Below are positions 47,623 through 61,243 of a DNA stretch of 64,000 nt, piece after piece. Both the position numbers and the translations under genes were made by a program. Positions within the stretch are counted from its first letter, which is position 1. Each line of letters starts with the position of its first letter. Origin of the DNA: Thermoleophilia bacterium (lineage in GTDB: Bacteria > Actinomycetota > Thermoleophilia > Miltoncostaeales > Miltoncostaeaceae); assembly GCA_028285405.1 (NCBI GenBank), contig JANQPH010000032.1:1-64000 (forward strand), given 5' to 3'. Below the pieces are notes generated by a model that was given only the letters and a program-made list of their open reading frames with translations, made no database searches and was not told the DNA's origin.

Positions 47623-49086
47623 GTGCTCGGCGTGGCCCGCATCGCGGCTCGAACGGCGGCGATCCTCGGGCTGGACGAGCTGGGCAGCCGGCTCGGCGTA
47701 CTCGAGCGCGCATCGCGCCCGGAGCCGCCCGCGCTGGCGGAGGCGCTGCGCCGGCGCAGGGAGAGCTTTCCGGCGTGGGCATCCTCGGCCGCCCAGTCCA
47801 TCGGGGCACGGACGCTGGGGTGCGAGGGCACCCACGGGGTGTTTCCCAAGTGCAACCTGGCGTGCACGCCCTGCTACCACGGCGCCGACGCCAACCGCGT
47901 GCGGATCGACGGCGAGCACACCCTGGCGGAGGTCGACGCGCAATCGGCCTACCACGCACGACGCCGGGGGCCCGGCCAGTACGCCCAGCTGATCGGCGGC
48001 GAGGTCACGCTGCTGCCGGCGCGCGAGCATGCCGCCGCCCTCGAGGCGATGATCGCCAACGGCCGAAAGCCCATGAGCATGAGCCACGGCGACTTCGACG
48101 AGGCGTACCTGCGCGACCTCGCCCTCGACGAGCACGGCAAACCACGCTTCGATCGCCTCTACTTCGCGCTCCACTTCGACAAGCTGATGCGGGGACGGCG
48201 CGGCGCGCAGCGGCCCGAGCGCGAAGCCGACCTGCACGAGCACCGCGCGAGCGCGTGCGCGATGTTCCGCCGGCTGTCCGAGGAGACCGGCATGCGCACG
48301 TACCTCGCGCACAACATGACCGTCACGCCCGCGAACGTCGACGAGATCCCGGACCTGATCCGGCGCTGCGGGCAGATGGGCTTTCGGATGTTCAGCTTCC
48401 AGCCCGCCGCGTTCCAGGGCAACTCCGTGCGCTGGAAGGAGGACTACCGCGGGCTCACCTCGGACGACGTCTGGTCGAGGATCGAGGAGGGCGCCGGTGC
48501 GCGGCTGCCGTACCGACTGATCCAGACCGGGGACCTCCGGTGCAACCGGACGGCCTACGGGGCCTACGTCGGCGCGCGGTGGGTGCCGCTGTTCGACGAC
48601 CGCGATCCGCGCGACCACGGGCTCCGGGACGCGTTCTTCGGAGCGATGGGCGCGATGAACACCGAGGTCGGGCCCGTGCTGGCGGGAACGCGCATGGCCC
48701 GCGGGATCGCCCGCGAGCCACGGGTCGTGCCGATCGCGCTCGCCTGGGCGACGCGCTTGGTCCGCAGGGCGGGCCTGCGCCAGCTCGTCCGCCACGGGGC
48801 GAGGTCGATGACCTTCGTGATGCACAGCTTCATGGACGCCGCCGACGTGCTCCCGGCATGGCGCCTGCTCGAGCGCGGGCAGATGAGCGACGAGCCGAGC
48901 GTGCGCGAGACCCAGGAGCGCCTGCTCGCCTGCGCGTACCACATGGCCCATCCCGAGACCGGTCGCCTCATCCCGGCCTGCGCTCAGCACGCGGTGTATG
49001 ACCCCGCCGAGAACATGCGCTTGGCCGAGCTCCTGCCGGCGCGGCGCGCGACGGGCGGATCGGTCAGGGGTCGAGCAGCCCCATGA
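47623..49086 (+). CDS. Radical SAM protein of unknown substrate
   Basis: 487 residues, GTG start. The cluster-binding CxxxCxxC appears as FPKCNLACTPCYHG near residue 83, early after a helical N-terminus. The middle has HFDKLMRG and RMFSFQPAAFQGNS barrel segments. The C-terminus carries additional cysteines (LLACAYHMAHP and LIPACAQHAVYDP), possibly ligands of an auxiliary cluster. The domain order does not match SPASM, B12-binding or HemN types that I can identify. Follows the GGDEF gene by 13 nt. Its 3' end overlaps the oppositely oriented flavin oxidoreductase by 23 nt. Confidence 0.82.
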   Translation: MLGVARIAARTAAILGLDELGSRLGVLERASRPEPPALAEALRRRRESFPAWASSAAQSIGARTLGCEGTHGVFPKCNLACTPCYHGADANRVRIDGEHTLAEVDAQSAYHARRRGPGQYAQLIGGEVTLLPAREHAAALEAMIANGRKPMSMSHGDFDEAYLRDLALDEHGKPRFDRLYFALHFDKLMRGRRGAQRPEREADLHEHRASACAMFRRLSEETGMRTYLAHNMTVTPANVDEIPDLIRRCGQMGFRMFSFQPAAFQGNSVRWKEDYRGLTSDDVWSRIEEGAGARLPYRLIQTGDLRCNRTAYGAYVGARWVPLFDDRDPRDHGLRDAFFGAMGAMNTEVGPVLAGTRMARGIAREPRVVPIALAWATRLVRRAGLRQLVRHGARSMTFVMHSFMDAADVLPAWRLLERGQMSDEPSVRETQERLLACAYHMAHPETGRLIPACAQHAVYDPAENMRLAELLPARRATGGSVRGRAAP

Positions 49087-50254
49087 CCTCGTCGACCTGC
49101 GCGTAGCCGGTCTGCATCAGGAACGCGCCGAAGCGGCCATGTGACTTGGCGCCGATGATGAAGAACCCGGGCTCGGGGTTCTTCAGGGTGTCGCCGCTCG
49201 GCGCCGCCTGGGCGAGACAATCCGTCGAGCCGCTCCCCAGCAGCGCGGCCGAGAGCGACATGGGTGCCGCGGTCGCGTAGCACTGATGGACCTGGAGCTG
49301 CTCGTGGAGCGTGCCGTCCCCGACGGCTCCCACCAGCGCGATCACCCGGTCGGCGAGAACCTCCTCCCCCACGCCCCGTGTTCTCAGCGCGACGAGCAGC
49401 CGCCCGTCGCGCTCGGCGATCGCCGCGACGGACGATCCGAGCCGGACGTCCACGTCGGGGCTCGCCCCGCCCGCCAGGGCGGTGCTGCCGGCGACCAGCT
49501 CGGCCCGCGCCGGAAGGGGATCGCCCGGGACCCCGCCCCAGTGCGGCTCGCGGTCCCGGACCGCCCACACGACGCGCGTTCCACCTGCCTCGTGCGCGAG
49601 CGCGGCCAGGTCGCGGACCGCGGTCTGTGCGGAGTGTCCGGCGCCGACCACGAGCGTGGTTGCGCCGGCGAAGGCTCCGGGCTCCTCACCGATGTCGGGG
49701 ATGGTGCGCTCGATCGCGTGCTGAAGCGCGCGCTCGCCGGGCGCCGGGATGCCCCCGTCGCCGATCGCGTTCGGGATCGACAGCGCACCGGACGAGTCGA
49801 TGACGATGTCGGCGCGCTCGATTCGCTCGCCGTCGTGGTCCTCGACGAGGAGCAGGAACGGCCGCGCCGCGCGCGCGTCAGAGGCGATCTCCTCGTCCTT
49901 GACGAGCCCGGCCCGCCCGATGCCGAGCACGCGAGCGCCCACCCGCACGTGGCCCGCCAGCTCGGGCGCCCGCGCGAGCGGCTCGAGCAGCCAGCTCACG
50001 AGCTCGGCACCGGTCGGGAGCCTCGTCCGGTCGGCGACGTCCGGAGCCGCCGAGCCGAGGGTGGCGCGCATGCGGGTCGACACGTTCATCGACCACGGCG
50101 TGAACAGCTCGACGTGACCCCAGCCGCGCACGCCCGCGCCAACCGTGGACCCCGCCTCGTAGACGACCGGCTGCCATCCGCGCTCGGCCACGGCGAGGGC
50201 GGCATCGAGTCCAACCGGCCCCGAACCCACGATCGCGACCCGCGGTCCGCTCAT
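49064..50254 (-). CDS. FAD-dependent NAD(P)-binding oxidoreductase
   Basis: 396 residues. The FAD Rossmann motif VAIVGSGPVGLDAAL is at the N-terminus, and a second nucleotide-binding motif LVVGAGHSAQTAV lies near residue 206, as in flavin monooxygenases and thioredoxin-reductase-like enzymes. The C-terminal PEPGFFIIGAKSHGRFGAFL segment is typical of a family of uncharacterised flavoproteins. Substrate unknown. Convergent with and overlapping the radical SAM gene, so co-function is possible but unproven. 72 nt downstream of gcvH with no clear terminator. Confidence 0.82.
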   Translation of the reverse strand: MSGPRVAIVGSGPVGLDAALAVAERGWQPVVYEAGSTVGAGVRGWGHVELFTPWSMNVSTRMRATLGSAAPDVADRTRLPTGAELVSWLLEPLARAPELAGHVRVGARVLGIGRAGLVKDEEIASDARAARPFLLLVEDHDGERIERADIVIDSSGALSIPNAIGDGGIPAPGERALQHAIERTIPDIGEEPGAFAGATTLVVGAGHSAQTAVRDLAALAHEAGGTRVVWAVRDREPHWGGVPGDPLPARAELVAGSTALAGGASPDVDVRLGSSVAAIAERDGRLLVALRTRGVGEEVLADRVIALVGAVGDGTLHEQLQVHQCYATAAPMSLSAALLGSGSTDCLAQAAPSGDTLKNPEPGFFIIGAKSHGRFGAFLMQTGYAQVDEVMGLLDP

Positions 50255-50326
50255 GACACCCCCTCGCTCACCCGTGGACCCCGCCCTGGTACCCGACGCT
50301 CTCGCTGGGCGGATGTCCGGGGGTCG

Positions 50327-50719
50327 TCAGAGGCCCTTCAGGTACTCCTGGTAGGCGGCGGCATCCATGAGGTCGTCCAGCTCGCTCGGATCCGACAGCC
50401 GCACCCGGATCAGCCAGCCGCCGCCGTACGGATCGCTGTTGGTCAGCTCCGGGGTCGAGCTCATGTCGCCGTTGACGGCCAGCACCTCACCGCTCGCGGG
50501 CGCGTAGATGTCAGAGACCGCCTTCACGGACTCCAGCTCGCCGTACGGCTGGTCCTTGGTCACCGTCGACCCGACACCGGGAGGATCGAAGTAGACGACG
50601 TCGCCCAGGGCCTCCTGCGCGTACCAGGTGATCCCGAACTCCGCCTCCTCGCCCTCGCGCCGCACCCAGTCGTGCTCGCGGTGGTAAAGGAGATCGCCGG
50701 GGTATGACTCGTCAGCCAT
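50327..50719 (-). CDS. gcvH: Glycine cleavage system H protein
   Basis: Lipoylated shuttle protein of glycine cleavage. 130 residues, with the lipoyl-lysine segment GELESVKAVSDIYAPASGEV near residue 63 and the N-terminal YHREHDWVR region. Located 3 nt after gcvT. The P-protein and L-protein genes are not in this window. Confidence 0.96.
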   Translation of the reverse strand: MADESYPGDLLYHREHDWVRREGEEAEFGITWYAQEALGDVVYFDPPGVGSTVTKDQPYGELESVKAVSDIYAPASGEVLAVNGDMSSTPELTNSDPYGGGWLIRVRLSDPSELDDLMDAAAYQEYLKGL

Positions 50720-50722
50720 CGC

Positions 50723-51823
50723 TCAGCCTTTCTTGGTCGGAGAGGTGTCCACCAGCGGACGGCGAGCGGTCCGCGCCGCCTTGCGCTTGCCACGCACGTC
50801 GATCTCGATCTCGGTTCCGGCCGCGGCCACGTCCGCCGGAAGATAGGCCATCCCGATCCCGTGGCCGAGCACCGGGCTCAGGGTCCCGCTCGTCACCTCG
50901 CCGACCGGCTCCCCGTTGGCGAGGACGGCCTGACCAGCGCGCGGGATTCCCGGCTCGGTCAGCTCGAAGGCCGCAAGGCGCTCGGCGGTCCCCTCCCGCG
51001 CCTGGCGCATGACCACGTCGGCCCCCACGAAGCCCCCGTGCTCCAGGTCACAGGCAAAGCGCAGCGCGGCCTCGATCGGGGTCCGCGACAGGGACAGCTC
51101 GTTGCCGTGCAGCGGGTACCCGACCTCGATCCGGAGCGTGTCCCTGGCGACGAGTCCCGCGGGAGCTGGAGCGTGCGCGCCGGCCTGGAGGGCGTCCCAC
51201 ACGGCCTCGGTGGCCTCCCATGGGCAGAGGATCTCGACGCCGGGCTCGCCCGTGTAGCCGGTCCGCGCCAGCAGGCAGCTCGCCCCGGCCACCTCGCCCG
51301 AGACGATGGAGAAGTAGGGCGTCGCGACCGCCGGCTCGGCGTCACCGACATCGGCGAGCGAGTCCGCCCAGGCCGGACCCTGGAGCGCGAGCATGCCCCA
51401 GTCACGTGAGCGGTCGGCCAGCTCGACGCCGCCGGGCAGCCCGGCGAGCAGCGCATCTCTGCACGCGTCGGTGTTCGACGCGTTCACCACGAGGAAGTAG
51501 CGGTCCTCCAGCCGGTAGACGATGAGGTCGTCGATCACTCCCCCGTGCTCGGTCAGCAGCAGCGTGTACTGGCCCTGGCCGACGTCGAGCTTGTCGAGGT
51601 CGTTGCTGAGGCGCGCCTGGAGGTAGTCGTGGGCGCCCGCCCCCGTCAGCTCGAGCTGCCCCATGTGCGACACGTCGAAGATGCCGGCGCGCTCGCGGAC
51701 GGCCATGTGCTCGTCCTTGGGGGAGGAGTAGAGCAGCGGCATCTGCCAGCCGGCGAACGGCGCCATCCGCGCGCCGAGGGCGACATGACGCTCGTGAAGC
51801 GGTGTGCGGGCATCCGTCGGCAC
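50723..51823 (-). CDS. gcvT: Glycine cleavage system T protein (aminomethyltransferase)
   Basis: Transfers the methylene group of the aminomethyl-lipoyl intermediate to tetrahydrofolate. 366 residues, GTG start at 51823. Motifs are the N-terminal PFAGWQMPLLYSS, FDVSHMGQLEL (about 49), RTGYTGEPGVEI (about 186) and the C-terminal VTSGTLSPVLGHGIGMAYL. The 112 nt between it and the ftsZ stop do not show the paired domains of a glycine riboswitch; a TAGCGT box 10 nt before GTG could be a -10. Confidence 0.95.
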   Translation of the reverse strand: MPTDARTPLHERHVALGARMAPFAGWQMPLLYSSPKDEHMAVRERAGIFDVSHMGQLELTGAGAHDYLQARLSNDLDKLDVGQGQYTLLLTEHGGVIDDLIVYRLEDRYFLVVNASNTDACRDALLAGLPGGVELADRSRDWGMLALQGPAWADSLADVGDAEPAVATPYFSIVSGEVAGASCLLARTGYTGEPGVEILCPWEATEAVWDALQAGAHAPAPAGLVARDTLRIEVGYPLHGNELSLSRTPIEAALRFACDLEHGGFVGADVVMRQAREGTAERLAAFELTEPGIPRAGQAVLANGEPVGEVTSGTLSPVLGHGIGMAYLPADVAAAGTEIEIDVRGKRKAARTARRPLVDTSPTKKG

Positions 51824-51935: not shown

Positions 51936-53057
51936 CTACCGGTTCTTCAGGAAGTCCGGGATCTCGAGCGCGTCGTCGGGGATGTCGAACGAGTCACGCT
52001 CGGCTGCCCCGAGGGACAGGCGCCGTCCGGTCTGGGCCGCCGGCTCCGGCTCCTCCTGCACGCGACGTGACGCGGACCGCCGCGAGGGCGCCTGGACCGC
52101 CGCCTCCTCGGGCGGCTCACCCGAGAACCCCGTGGCGATGACCGTGACGCGAAGCGAGTCGCCCGCCGTCTCGTCGATCACCGCGCCGAAGATCACGTTG
52201 CAGTCCTCGGACGCCGCGCTGCTGATGATCGCCGCGGCCTCGTCGATCTCGAAGAGCCCGAGATCCGGACCGCCGGTGATGTTCAGGAGCACGCCCCGGG
52301 CGCCGGAGATCGTGGTCTCGAGCAGCGGGCTCGAGATCGCCGCCCGGGCCGCCTCGGTCGCGCGGTTCTCACCGGACGCGTTTCCGATGCCCATGAGCGA
52401 TGCGCCCGCGTCGGCCATGATCGTCCGCACGTCGGCGAAGTCCAGGTTGATCAGCCCGGGAACGGTGATCAGGTCGGTGATGCCCTGGACACCCTGGCGG
52501 AGCACGTCGTCCGCCATCTGGAACGCGTCGATGATCGACGTGCGTCGCTCGACGACCTCGATCAGCCGCTCGTTCGGGATGACGATCAGCGAGTCGACCT
52601 GACCCGCCAGCTCGCGAATCCCGTCGTCCGCCCGCTGCGAGCGCTGCCTGCCCTCGAACGAGAACGGCCGGGTCACGACCCCGACGGTCAACGCGCCCTG
52701 CTCGCGCGCGATCTGCGCGAGCACGGGGGCGGCACCGGTGCCGGTTCCGCCACCCTCGCCCGCGGTCACGAACACCATGTCCGCGCCGCGAACTGACTCC
52801 TTCAGCTCCTCGCGGCTCTCCTCGGCGGCCTCGCGGCCGACCCCTGGGTCCGCTCCGGCGCCGAGCCCCTTGGTGATCGTGTCACCGATCTGCACCTTCA
52901 GATCGGCATCGCTCATCGCGAGGGCCTGCGCGTCCGTGTTCACCGCGATGAACTCGACGCCACGCACTCCGGCGTCGACCATCCGGTTGACGGCGTTGGT
53001 GCCGCCTCCTCCTACGCCGCACACCTTGATGACGGCCAGATAGCTGCTGGATTCCAA
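51936..53057 (-). CDS. ftsZ: Cell division protein FtsZ
   Basis: Tubulin-like GTPase forming the division ring. 373 residues. The start is TTG at 53057, because AGGAGG at 53070-53065 sits 7 nt upstream and gives the normal N-terminus ([18 protein letters not shown]). An upstream TTG at 53096 has no such site. The GTP-binding tubulin signature [15 protein letters not shown] is near 103, with NTDAQAL and [11 protein letters not shown] synergy-loop residues. The variable linker is short and the C-terminal peptide [12 protein letters not shown] is the usual partner-binding tail. Own promoter and long leader upstream. ftsA is not present next to it. Confidence 0.97.
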
Positions 53058-53134
53058 GGTCGCCCCTCCTGGGTGGGCGGTGCCGTAAAGGTTCAATCTG
53101 CTGTGGAGACCGAGGCCAAGCTGATCTCAGATGA

Positions 53135-53153
53135 CCTCAAGTTGTGCTTGAGG
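53135..53153. promoter_or_regulatory. Perfect palindrome in the ftsZ leader
   Basis: CCTCAAG-TTGTG-CTTGAGG: two 7-nt arms with a 5-nt spacer, about 60 nt inside the predicted ftsZ transcript. It shares the core TCAAG-N5-CTTGA with the palindrome at 53251-53265. It could be a repressor operator or an RNA hairpin. A second hairpin with GAGGCC/GGCCTC arms lies at 53162-53179. Confidence 0.5.
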
Positions 53154-53213
53154 GTACTTCGGAGGCCACCTTGGGCCTCATTCACCTGAAGTTGGCACTA
53201 GAACTCCACCGTG

Positions 53214-53242
53214 AACCTAGGTGCGGATCACCCAGCTGTCAA
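53214..53242 (-). promoter_or_regulatory. Predicted sigma-70 promoter of ftsZ
   Basis: Minus-strand TTGACA (53242-53237, perfect consensus), 17-nt spacer, TAGGTT (53219-53214). The transcription start is expected near 53207, leaving a leader of about 150 nt before the TTG start codon. It is the strongest promoter match in the window and lies in a 240-nt non-coding gap between ftsQ and ftsZ. Confidence 0.72.
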
Positions 53243-53250
53243 GGCGAATC

Positions 53251-53265
53251 TCAAGTCGTACTTGA
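53251..53265. promoter_or_regulatory. Palindrome upstream of the ftsZ -35 box
   Basis: TCAAGTCGTACTTGA: 6-nt arms around CGT, ending 8 nt upstream of the -35. This is a typical activator position, about -44 to -58. It has the same TCAAG-N5-CTTGA core as the leader palindrome at 53135-53153, which suggests one regulator binding both. The known HspR (HAIR) motif has the opposite half-site order and 7-nt spacing, so it is not that. Confidence 0.5.
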
Positions 53266-53298
53266 TGGTTGCTCAGCGGGTTGTGAGCCAACCCTCGA

Positions 53299-54141
53299 TC
53301 ATTGATCGATGTCTCCGATGCCCGTCGTCGCCGCCGAATCGTCGACCGGTGTCACCTCGGGAAGCCCGCCGACCGCGGGCCGGTCGGCGACGCTCAGATC
53401 GATGTAGGTCGCCGCCTGCTCCTGCTCGGACGACAGGTTCGAGAGCAACGCGGTGAGGGCGGCGGCCTTGCTCACCACGTCGTCGGGCGCGCCGAACCGC
53501 AGCCTCGGCCCGTTGACCAGCCGGCCCTCCAGCCGCCCACCCCGCATTCGCAGCCCGCGCAGCCGCTGCGCCACCTCGGGCGGTGTCGCGCCCGCGAGCG
53601 CAACCGCGCCCTTCGCCTGGCGCGGAACGGGCTCCCCCACTTCCGGCGGCGGAGCGGAGAGCGCGACGCGCGCGAGCCCCGATCGCGGCTCGGCCGGACC
53701 GAGCACCCGACCGTCGGGGGCGACGAGCACGCTCGTCTCACCGTCCGTCGCAACCGCCACGGGCCGGGCGGGCGTCACCCGAACGACGACACCGAAGGGC
53801 AGGTCGCGCGAGACCGACACCGACTCGACCCAGGGATGGGCGGATGCCGCCTCTCGGATCGACGCGACGGGCGGGCGCAGCACCGTGCCGTCGGACACCG
53901 CACGCTCGAGATCCGCCTCGAGCGCCGCGGCATCGCCGGTGAGCTCGCCGCGCAGGTCGACGTCGCGCACCGAGAGCAGCGGCCCGGTCGCCAGGAACCA
54001 CAGCGCGGCGGCCCCGACTCCGACGGCGACCGTGCCGAGCACCACCCGGCGGCGGCGAGCGTGCGTGCCGTCGGCCACGGGCCTCGAGCGGCGACGCCGG
54101 TTCGCGTGAGGTCCGCGGACCGCTCGGGCGTCGCTGCTCAC
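53299..54141 (-). CDS. ftsQ: Cell division protein FtsQ
   Basis: Bitopic divisome protein. 280 residues: a basic cytoplasmic N-terminus with RRRRSRP, one membrane helix near 35-55 (VVLGTVAVGVGAAALWFLA), and a POTRA domain (SVRDVDLRGELTGDAAALE) followed by the FtsQ beta domain with HPWVESVSVSRDLPFGVVVRVT. GTG 54141 overlaps the murB TGA (GTGA). The longer open frame up to 54960 is a shadow of murB. The stop is followed by the ftsZ control region. Confidence 0.9.
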   Translation of the reverse strand: MSSDARAVRGPHANRRRRSRPVADGTHARRRRVVLGTVAVGVGAAALWFLATGPLLSVRDVDLRGELTGDAAALEADLERAVSDGTVLRPPVASIREAASAHPWVESVSVSRDLPFGVVVRVTPARPVAVATDGETSVLVAPDGRVLGPAEPRSGLARVALSAPPPEVGEPVPRQAKGAVALAGATPPEVAQRLRGLRMRGGRLEGRLVNGPRLRFGAPDDVVSKAAALTALLSNLSSEQEQAATYIDLSVADRPAVGGLPEVTPVDDSAATTGIGDIDQ

Positions 54142-59966: not shown

Positions 59967-61243
59967 TCGCTGAACTGGTCGAAGCTCGCGCAGGCCGGGG
60001 CGAGCAGGACGACATCGCCGGGCCGGGCGATCGCGGCCGCATCGCGAACCGCGCGGTCCAGATCGCCGACCGAGGACGCCTCGATCCCCACGGAGCGAAG
60101 CGCCCGCTCGATCTCGGGGGCGGTCTCCCCGATCAGGTGCGCCGAGACCAGGCTCCCCTGCGCCGCGGCGGCGAGGGCGTCGAAGGGTGTCCCTTTGGCG
60201 CTGCCGCCCGCGATCAGGTGCACCCGGCGGTCGTAGGCGCTGAGCGCCGCGGCCGCGGCCTCGGGGTTCGTCGCCTTCGAGTCGTTCACGAACAGCACCC
60301 CGTCGAGCTCGCCCACGACCTCGAGCCGGTGCGACACGCCGGGAAAGCTCGCCAGGCCGGCCGCCAGGCCCTCGGGATCGGCGCCGGCACGCAGGCAGAG
60401 CGCCGCGGCGGCCATCGCGTTGACGCGGTTGTGGGCACCGACGAGGGCGACGTCGTCCCATCTGGCGACCAGCCCGACACCGGCGAGGTGCAGCCCGCCG
60501 TCGGACCACGCGATCGCGCCGTCCACCAGCGGGCCGTCGACCACCCGGGCCGGCAGCACCCCCGGCGGCGGAGAGATGTCGGCCGGGATGATCGCGAGAT
60601 CGCCGGCGCGCATGTTCTGGAACAGCCGGAGCTTGACCTCCAGGTAGCGCTCCATGCTGCCGTGGCGGTCCAGGTGGTCCGGCGACAGGTTGAGGAAGGC
60701 CGCCGCGGTCGGCCGGAATCGGTGGGTGTCCTCCAGCTGGAAGCTCGAGCACTCGACGCAGAGCCACTCGTCGGCGGCGACCACACCGACCAGCGAGCTG
60801 AGCGGCGTCCCCTGGTTCCCGCACGCCCGGGCCGAGATCCCGGATGCGCGCAGCAGGTGCGCCGTAAGCTCGGTCGTGGTCGTCTTGCCGTTGGTGCCGG
60901 TGATGCCGATGATCGGGTTCGGGAGCATCCGAGCTGCCAGCTCGAGCTCGCTCCAGACCGGGATGCCGCGCGCCCGTGCGTCGCGCAGGATCGGGTTCGT
61001 GTCCGGAACGCCGGGGCTTCGGACGAGCAGGTCGATCTCGCCGAAGGGCTCCTCGGACGGGGCGAGGACGGTCACGCCGGCGGACACCAGCTCGGGCGCG
61101 TCGATCGGCGCCCGATCGCTCGCGAGCACTCGCCATCCCCGGCTCGCGAGCAGCGTGGCCGCCGCGCGGCCGGAGCGAGCGAGGCCGACGACGCCAGCCG
61201 AACCGGGTACCTCGATGTCAACTTGAGGCTGAGACACCGTCAC
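59882..61243 (-). CDS. murD: UDP-N-acetylmuramoylalanine-D-glutamate ligase
   Basis: Adds D-glutamate to UDP-MurNAc-L-Ala. 453 residues. It has an N-terminal Rossmann region with VVGLARSGRAAATLLA, the P-loop GITGTNGKTTTTELTAHLL near 117, NLSPDHLDRHG near 190 and a C-terminal NDSKATNPEA motif with the conserved Asn-Asp-Ser. GTG 61243 overlaps the mraY TGA. The C-terminal ~28 codons overlap the antisense gene. Confidence 0.95.
   Translation of the reverse strand: MTVSQPQVDIEVPGSAGVVGLARSGRAAATLLASRGWRVLASDRAPIDAPELVSAGVTVLAPSEEPFGEIDLLVRSPGVPDTNPILRDARARGIPVWSELELAARMLPNPIIGITGTNGKTTTTELTAHLLRASGISARACGNQGTPLSSLVGVVAADEWLCVECSSFQLEDTHRFRPTAAAFLNLSPDHLDRHGSMERYLEVKLRLFQNMRAGDLAIIPADISPPPGVLPARVVDGPLVDGAIAWSDGGLHLAGVGLVARWDDVALVGAHNRVNAMAAAALCLRAGADPEGLAAGLASFPGVSHRLEVVGELDGVLFVNDSKATNPEAAAAALSAYDRRVHLIAGGSAKGTPFDALAAAAQGSLVSAHLIGETAPEIERALRSVGIEASSVGDLDRAVRDAAAIARPGDVVLLAPACASFDQFSDYAARGEAFRAAARALGAVPGRRLGSAA

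Follow-up and report, generated by a model that had tools for sequence, protein, structure and literature searches.

The ftsZ upstream region

The window, a 64,000-nucleotide stretch of a Thermoleophilia bacterium contig, carries ftsZ on its minus strand, and the encoded protein matches the NCBIfam profile TIGR00065 at 432.4 bits (cut-off 295.2). The gene upstream of ftsZ is putatively ftsQ, judged by position and by eye. Downstream of ftsZ, on the same strand, gcvT- and gcvH-like genes and a gene for an FAD-dependent oxidoreductase can be recognized by eye (49064-51823). The features at the ftsZ start are listed below, where box positions are relative to the predicted transcription start and box scores come from a position weight matrix (PWM) trained on sites from the bacterium's own family.

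51936-53057, minus strand: ftsZ coding sequence, with a TTG start at 53057-53055
53063-53070, minus strand: ribosome binding site AGGAGGGG ahead of the ftsZ TTG, read from the sequence
53091-53109, minus strand: box D2, TCTCCACAGCAGATTGAAC, weak, PWM score 9.2, at about +106
53135-53153, minus strand: box D1, CCTCAAGCACAACTTGAGG, PWM score 25.2, at about +62, within the leader
53162-53179, minus strand: GAGGCC/GGCCTC inverted repeat (arms 53179-53174 and 53167-53162), unconserved and not counted as functional
About 53206, minus strand: predicted transcription start, placed 7 nt past the -10 hexamer
53214-53219, minus strand: -10 hexamer TAGGTT, read from the sequence, its TAnnnT form retained by relatives
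53237-53242, minus strand: -35 hexamer TTGACA, read from the sequence and conserved in relatives
53249-53267, minus strand: box U1, CATCAAGTACGACTTGAGA, PWM score 21.3, at about -52
53293-53311, minus strand: box U2, CATCGATCAATGATCGAGG, PWM score 17.8, at about -96

The sequence-only reading of this region had proposed a near-consensus ftsZ promoter followed by a leader of about 150 nt. Both hexamers and their 17-bp spacer are present as described, but only the -35 hexamer is a perfect consensus, as TAGGTT matches TATAAT at just 3 of 6 letters; a strict promoter scan of the upstream region called no promoter for this reason. A TTGAC-type -35 element followed after 16-18 bp by TAnnnT is nevertheless found in 33 of 36 ftsZ upstream regions of the family, and the predicted start gives a leader of about 149 nt, in agreement with the length first proposed. 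A second promoter driven from D1 was considered and rejected, as no TAnnnT stands at a fixed offset in at least 4 of 14 representatives.

The two palindromes sharing TCAAG-N5-CTTGA that the earlier reading placed at 53251-53265 and 53135-53153 are both real and correspond to U1 and D1. That reading overlooked U2, which spans the stop codon of the gene upstream of ftsZ and lies partly beyond the interval then considered (53058-53298), and the weak D2. D1 is a perfect box of the type described below, CCTCAA-GCACAAC-TTGAGG, with its palindrome core at 53137-53151, while U1 reads CATCAA-GTACGAC-TTGAGA and ends 6 bp from the -35 hexamer. The region thus holds three boxes above PWM 14 (U2, U1 and D1) and a fourth, D2, at 9.2, the centers of the four being 44, 114 and 44 bp apart. 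When the bacterium's own genus is excluded from the PWM, U2, U1, D1 and D2 score 17.6, 20.3, 24.3 and 9.6, and with a PWM built from genus g12 alone they score 9.8, 13.4, 21.8 and 10.4; the D2 position scores 15-19 in the related genomes G001-G003, G009 and G010.

Allowing up to one mismatch, TCAAG-N5-CTTGA has 3 matches in the window against a shuffle mean of 0.33. A genome-wide search, which had been suggested as a check, returned only 2 exact matches in 2,408,210 bases, both at ftsZ, and therefore does not indicate random occurrence. The looser pattern CYTMAA-N7-TTKARG with up to one mismatch is unenriched across the genome (14 places against 19 for the control), and a palindromic 23-base pattern with up to 3 mismatches occurs 51 times against 15 for the control, so that a genome-wide regulon cannot be called by pattern. 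A one-mismatch box, CCTCAAGTTGACATCGAGG, is also seen on the minus strand of the window at 61210-61228.

FtsR as the candidate regulator

While the palindrome core had at first been matched to no known actinobacterial regulator, it can now be matched to FtsR. In Corynebacterium glutamicum, the FtsR site of the ftsZ promoter, AACCCTAAAGTAAAGGTTGAGGGTA, has the form CCTAAA-N7-TTGAGG and was identified by ChAP-Seq and EMSA by Kraxner et al. (PMC6683498), who also note an FtsR site in M. tuberculosis. Inverted repeats with FtsR half-sites and a 7-bp spacer are present upstream of ftsZ in D1 and U1, and D1 has the same spacing as the C. glutamicum site, with one half-site identical and the other a single letter off. 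Because CCTCAA-N7-TTGAGG closely resembles the published site and shares its spacing, and because the genome encodes FtsR, the factor that recognizes the ftsZ palindromes is very probably FtsR, a MerR-type activator of ftsZ.

The FtsR assignment is that of one among seven PF13411 matches in the genome, located at G000:C27, which matches NF050798 (NCBIfam) at 223.7 bits (cut-off 150) over profile positions 1-222 of 223 and is the single FtsR encoded. Its C-terminal part matches the C-terminal domain of Rv1828 (5ydc, E 7e-10), the sole PDB match with an E-value of 1e-5 or lower. FtsR is found in 36 of 42 genomes of the family, and scores above the cut-off in 59/60 genomes from other families of the class and 38/40 from the rest of the phylum; among 14 control genomes only one, C. 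glutamicum, has it. The original suggestion that one factor binds both palindromes is strongly supported, at the level of sequence, by the box match, the FtsR ortholog and the conservation in relatives. We hold putative FtsR control of this ftsZ with high confidence.

The likeness to C. glutamicum FtsR (Cg1631) and M. tuberculosis Rv1828 extends from the FtsR ortholog, half-site, 7-bp spacing and ftsZ target to gene order, with ftsR right after a garA/odhI-type FHA gene, and to a box position compatible with activation. In this genome, ftsR is directly downstream of such a gene: the GarA/OdhI-like FHA gene (L135:2464-2919) overlaps the ftsR open reading frame at 2916, its best NCBIfam match being OdhI at 120.8 bits, below the cut-off of 200. 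The genes that follow ftsR differ, being adenine phosphoribosyltransferase-like and then ROK-kinase-like (by eye), compared with a nuclease gene and a second MerR gene in known FtsR systems.

A further box lies ahead of garA-ftsR:

G000:C27:35794-35812 (L135:2095-2113): garA-ftsR box, situated where a pgsA-like gene ends (TIGR00560 at 85.3 bits, short of the cut-off of 109.1), about 350 bp before garA

Among 21 garA-ftsR upstream regions (this genome and 20 of 35 FtsR-bearing relatives), 17, including this one, have a box scoring at least PWM 12, where shuffles average 0.3 and reach at most 1/21; the four without a box at PWM 12 are G019, G011, G007 and G008, the stretch from G007 being only 980 bases long. 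Among the g12 genomes compared, it lies far nearer the garA start than the roughly 350 bp seen here. This recurrence points to putative autoregulation of FtsR.

For the ftsZ promoters of C. glutamicum and M. tuberculosis, the published account (PMC6683498) describes one 25-bp box, which in M. tuberculosis lies between -35 and -10. The region described here differs from this one-box arrangement in having two boxes upstream of the promoter, one or two in the leader, and the additional garA-ftsR box. FtsR control of ftsZ is thus already published, but the promoter-flanking array looks new: among the matches listed in the largely open literature on FtsR/Rv1828, ftsZ and division in Thermoleophilia, we came across no report of FtsR boxes that are multiple or that flank a promoter.

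Recurrence and spacing of the boxes in relatives

Upstream regions of ftsZ were gathered from 36 of the 42 family genomes (the remaining 6 being without a usable ftsZ start), from 60 of 119 class genomes outside the family, and from 40 of 143 phylum genomes outside the class. A further 32 Actinomycetes and 32 Bacillota regions were taken from 80 loci, the other 16 of which (Thermoleophilia-like, Rubrobacter, Coriobacteriia, Chloroflexi and one unplaced) were left out and covered by a letter-count scan instead. The exact box CCTCAA-N7-TTGAGG occurs in 22/42 family genomes, mostly of genus g12, and its reversed control in 0/42. Counting boxes with at least 9 of 12 letters, the 36 family regions contain 98, compared with a shuffle mean of 3.5 and maximum of 10, and 35 of the 36 contain at least two.

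At PWM 14, at least one, two and three boxes are present in 36, 34 and 10 of the 36 family regions, in 48, 25 and 6 of the 60 regions from other families of the class, in 28, 0 and 0 of the 32 Actinomycetes, and in 22, 0 and 0 of the 40 from the rest of the phylum, while boxes are found in 0/32 Bacillota ftsZ upstream regions. Relaxing the threshold raises the counts for the rest of the phylum to 28, 2 and 0 at PWM 12 and 33, 11 and 2 at PWM 8, and at the loose PWM 8 at least two boxes appear in 4/32 Actinomycetes. Since the PWM was trained on the family itself, a control matrix was retrained on 64 of 72 regions from outside the class. With this matrix, at scores of 8 and 12, at least two boxes are found in 21 and 11 of 36 family regions, 40 and 26 of 60 other class regions, 12 and 6 of 40 from the rest of the phylum, and 0 and 0 of 32 Actinomycetes. 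Arrays of boxes are commoner in the class, and none is seen in the Actinomycetes set at PWM 14 or with the retrained matrix, yet the class is not their sole holder; given the retrained-matrix counts, the contrast is a matter of degree, and a few other actinobacterial families may have second FtsR boxes as well.

Correspondence between boxes and regulator has exceptions. Three of the 60 class regions (G059, G069 and G132) lack a box at PWM 8 though FtsR is encoded, G133 has boxes but no FtsR above the cut-off, and in family f4 a promoter is called in 0/10 regions, two of which are without any box.

The conservation in relatives for which the sequence-only reading had called is evident, with boxes recurring near fixed promoter distances in the family and recurring in the class. 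In the family, upstream boxes stand at -92 to -99 (or -82/-83) and at -50 to -52 (or -40) from the predicted start, and leader boxes at +60 to +64 (or +75) and +105 to +107 (or +118); genus g5 has a weak box at -29 and G006 an extra weak box at +30. Genus g12 has only the -82 and -40 boxes, the TTGA of the latter forming part of the -35 element. No single box is indispensable, as leader boxes are absent from g12, U1 from g2, and a leader box at PWM 8 from G008. Other families have layouts of their own, for example about -107/-77/+37 and -130/-88/+37, and the position of the downstream box varies among families (+10/+11, +32 to +40, +62, +72 or +104). At PWM 10, 48/96 regions have boxes both upstream and downstream of the promoter, a promoter being called in 81/96.

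Spacing within the family is more regular still. U1 and D1 are 113-115 bp apart in most family genera having both. From the promoter to D1 the leader is saturated with changes, its pairwise identity across 11 genera being 0.288 against 0.28 expected, which argues that the spacing is kept by selection and not by recent descent. U2 and U1 are separated by about 32, 43, 54 or 64 bp, steps of one helical turn (class-randomized P 0.004; P 0.017 with four length classes); the 54- and 64-bp classes depend on weak U1 boxes (PWM 8-10), and when PWM 10 is required, just two classes are left, 31-33 and 42-44. Outside the family, neither the spacing between upstream boxes nor that between upstream and downstream boxes shows helical phasing (R is close to the value for a uniform distribution).

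Readings of the promoter-flanking array

Because the boxes (two strong, one degenerate and a weak fourth) match the FtsR site, flank the promoter and mostly hold their position, and because FtsR is encoded, we consider it likely that the ftsZ upstream region is a putative multi-site control region for FtsR, as read from sequence. That the promoter-flanking array is the functional form of this control is also likely. Activation would follow by analogy with C. glutamicum: FtsR on U2 and U1 would activate RNA polymerase from just upstream of the -35 element, with an activator center at about -52 or, in genus g12, at -40, where it touches the -35. The leader boxes D1 and D2 would be occupied at higher FtsR levels, where FtsR could either bridge to U1 and U2 or hinder early elongation, so capping ftsZ output, and the garA-ftsR box would add autoregulation. 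These roles of U1 as activator site and of D1 and D2 as cap or bridge partner are suggested by position, and the outcome would be an FtsZ supply kept within limits, separately from the upstream genes.

How the two sides of the promoter work together is less certain. The upstream boxes may activate while the downstream boxes serve as a local elongation roadblock or FtsR reservoir, without contact between the sides, a reading to which we give somewhat less than an even chance. Positions of -50 to -52 or -40 are ordinary for an activator, the downstream position varies between families, the distance between upstream and downstream boxes is unphased outside the family, and in C. glutamicum FtsR acts as an activator (PMC6683498); however, the spacing of upstream and downstream boxes is nearly constant within the family despite saturated sequence, a constancy that a simple roadblock would not require. 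Alternatively, and more tentatively, FtsR bound on both sides may be joined so that a short DNA loop or nucleoprotein complex encloses the promoter, loop formation being the switch. The 44-114-44 bp spacing, the helical steps between U2 and U1, the constant U1-D1 distance and the boxes on both sides in half of the regions at PWM 10 are consistent with such bridging. Against it, the longer U2-U1 classes hang on weak U1 boxes, some genera miss boxes on one side, a DNA loop of about 114 bp is stiff in the absence of a bending protein, and strict looping is weakened by the lack of phasing outside the family. Promoters with several operators, placed on both sides, are familiar from gal and ara, in which sites flank one promoter as they do here; their regulators are unrelated to FtsR. 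As a speculative extension to the whole class, FtsR there might not be a one-site MerR activator but might instead act through dimers bound to box pairs (spaced 42-44 bp in most family members), upstream and in the leader, that bridge the ftsZ promoter, together with garA-ftsR autoregulation.

Other accounts of the palindromes are far less probable. An effect through RNA, as an attenuator or as a hairpin governing ftsZ translation, was part of the original proposal and appears very unlikely. D1 could form a hairpin with 7 bp in the stem and 5 nt in the loop, and leader boxes exceed upstream boxes in complementarity at pair 5-13 (1.0 vs 0.61) and pair 0-18 (0.71 vs 0.43), but the inner spacer pair 6-12 has no excess (0.38 vs 0.36). 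The same type of palindrome also occurs upstream of the promoter, hence outside the leader RNA, and genus g12 has no leader box. The ftsZ leader fold has z = -1.5, with 12/200 shuffles equally stable, a terminator search of the leader found none, and no Rfam family exceeds its gathering score in 52800-53600, where three weak matches lie far below. In a D1-anchored alignment, conservation is nearly confined to the 25-bp box. The GAGGCC/GGCCTC repeat that had been proposed as an additional hairpin does exist but is unseen in aligned relatives and forms no part of the regulatory element. The ftsZ box element most likely works as DNA.

Binding by a different MerR-type protein, for instance the heat-shock repressor HspR, is similarly improbable, if marginally less so than the RNA account. 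This genome does encode HspR (NF047375, 113.1 bits, cut-off 105), and in G133 boxes are present though no FtsR is called. HspR is a MerR-family repressor whose HAIR element, CTTGAGT-N7-ACTCAAG, is an inverted repeat of CTTGAG/CTCAAG and shares its hexamer letters with the FtsR-type box. The HAIR half-sites, however, stand in the opposite order, with CTTGAG first, a HAIR search with up to 2 mismatches gave 0 matches in the whole genome, and the ftsZ box, whose half-sites have the order and spacing of the FtsR site, recurs before garA-ftsR. Chance can be practically dismissed: although the looser one-mismatch pattern is unenriched genome-wide, the exact matches fall only at ftsZ, the excess of family boxes over shuffles is large, positions are kept, and garA-ftsR has boxes of its own.

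This genome also has a second ftsZ:

G000:C14:42064-43035 (L136:1418-2650): second ftsZ, a paralogue with 63% identity over the core, standing after a ParA-like gene (by eye)

In a set of ftsZ2 upstream regions from this genome and 20 relatives, there is no box at PWM 12 in the 20 relatives (one reaches 11.3) and none at PWM 8 in this genome. At least two FtsZ matches are found in 32/42 family genomes (fragments counted) and 107/119 other class genomes; at E 1e-110, 137 of the 143 phylum genomes outside the class have one FtsZ, three (family f31) have two and three have none.

The setting of FtsZ amount in actinobacteria is poorly known, and FtsR is among the few direct ftsZ regulators. WhiA and WhiB regulate ftsZ in Streptomyces. 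For C. glutamicum, FtsR was called the first direct ftsZ regulator in 2019 (PMC6683498). Flanking boxes, a garA-ftsR box and a boxless ftsZ2 together offer a natural test of whether FtsR activates only or also caps, and the same relatives offer one for separate control of two FtsZ paralogues. If the bridging reading were true, the array would be a homeostatic switch for the FtsZ supply of only one of the two paralogues.

In genus g12, an rlmB-like gene and the surroundings of a sigma-H-like sigma factor gene (L138; L014, L019) also carry strong FtsR-type boxes; these loci, named from sequence only, are possible further FtsR targets.
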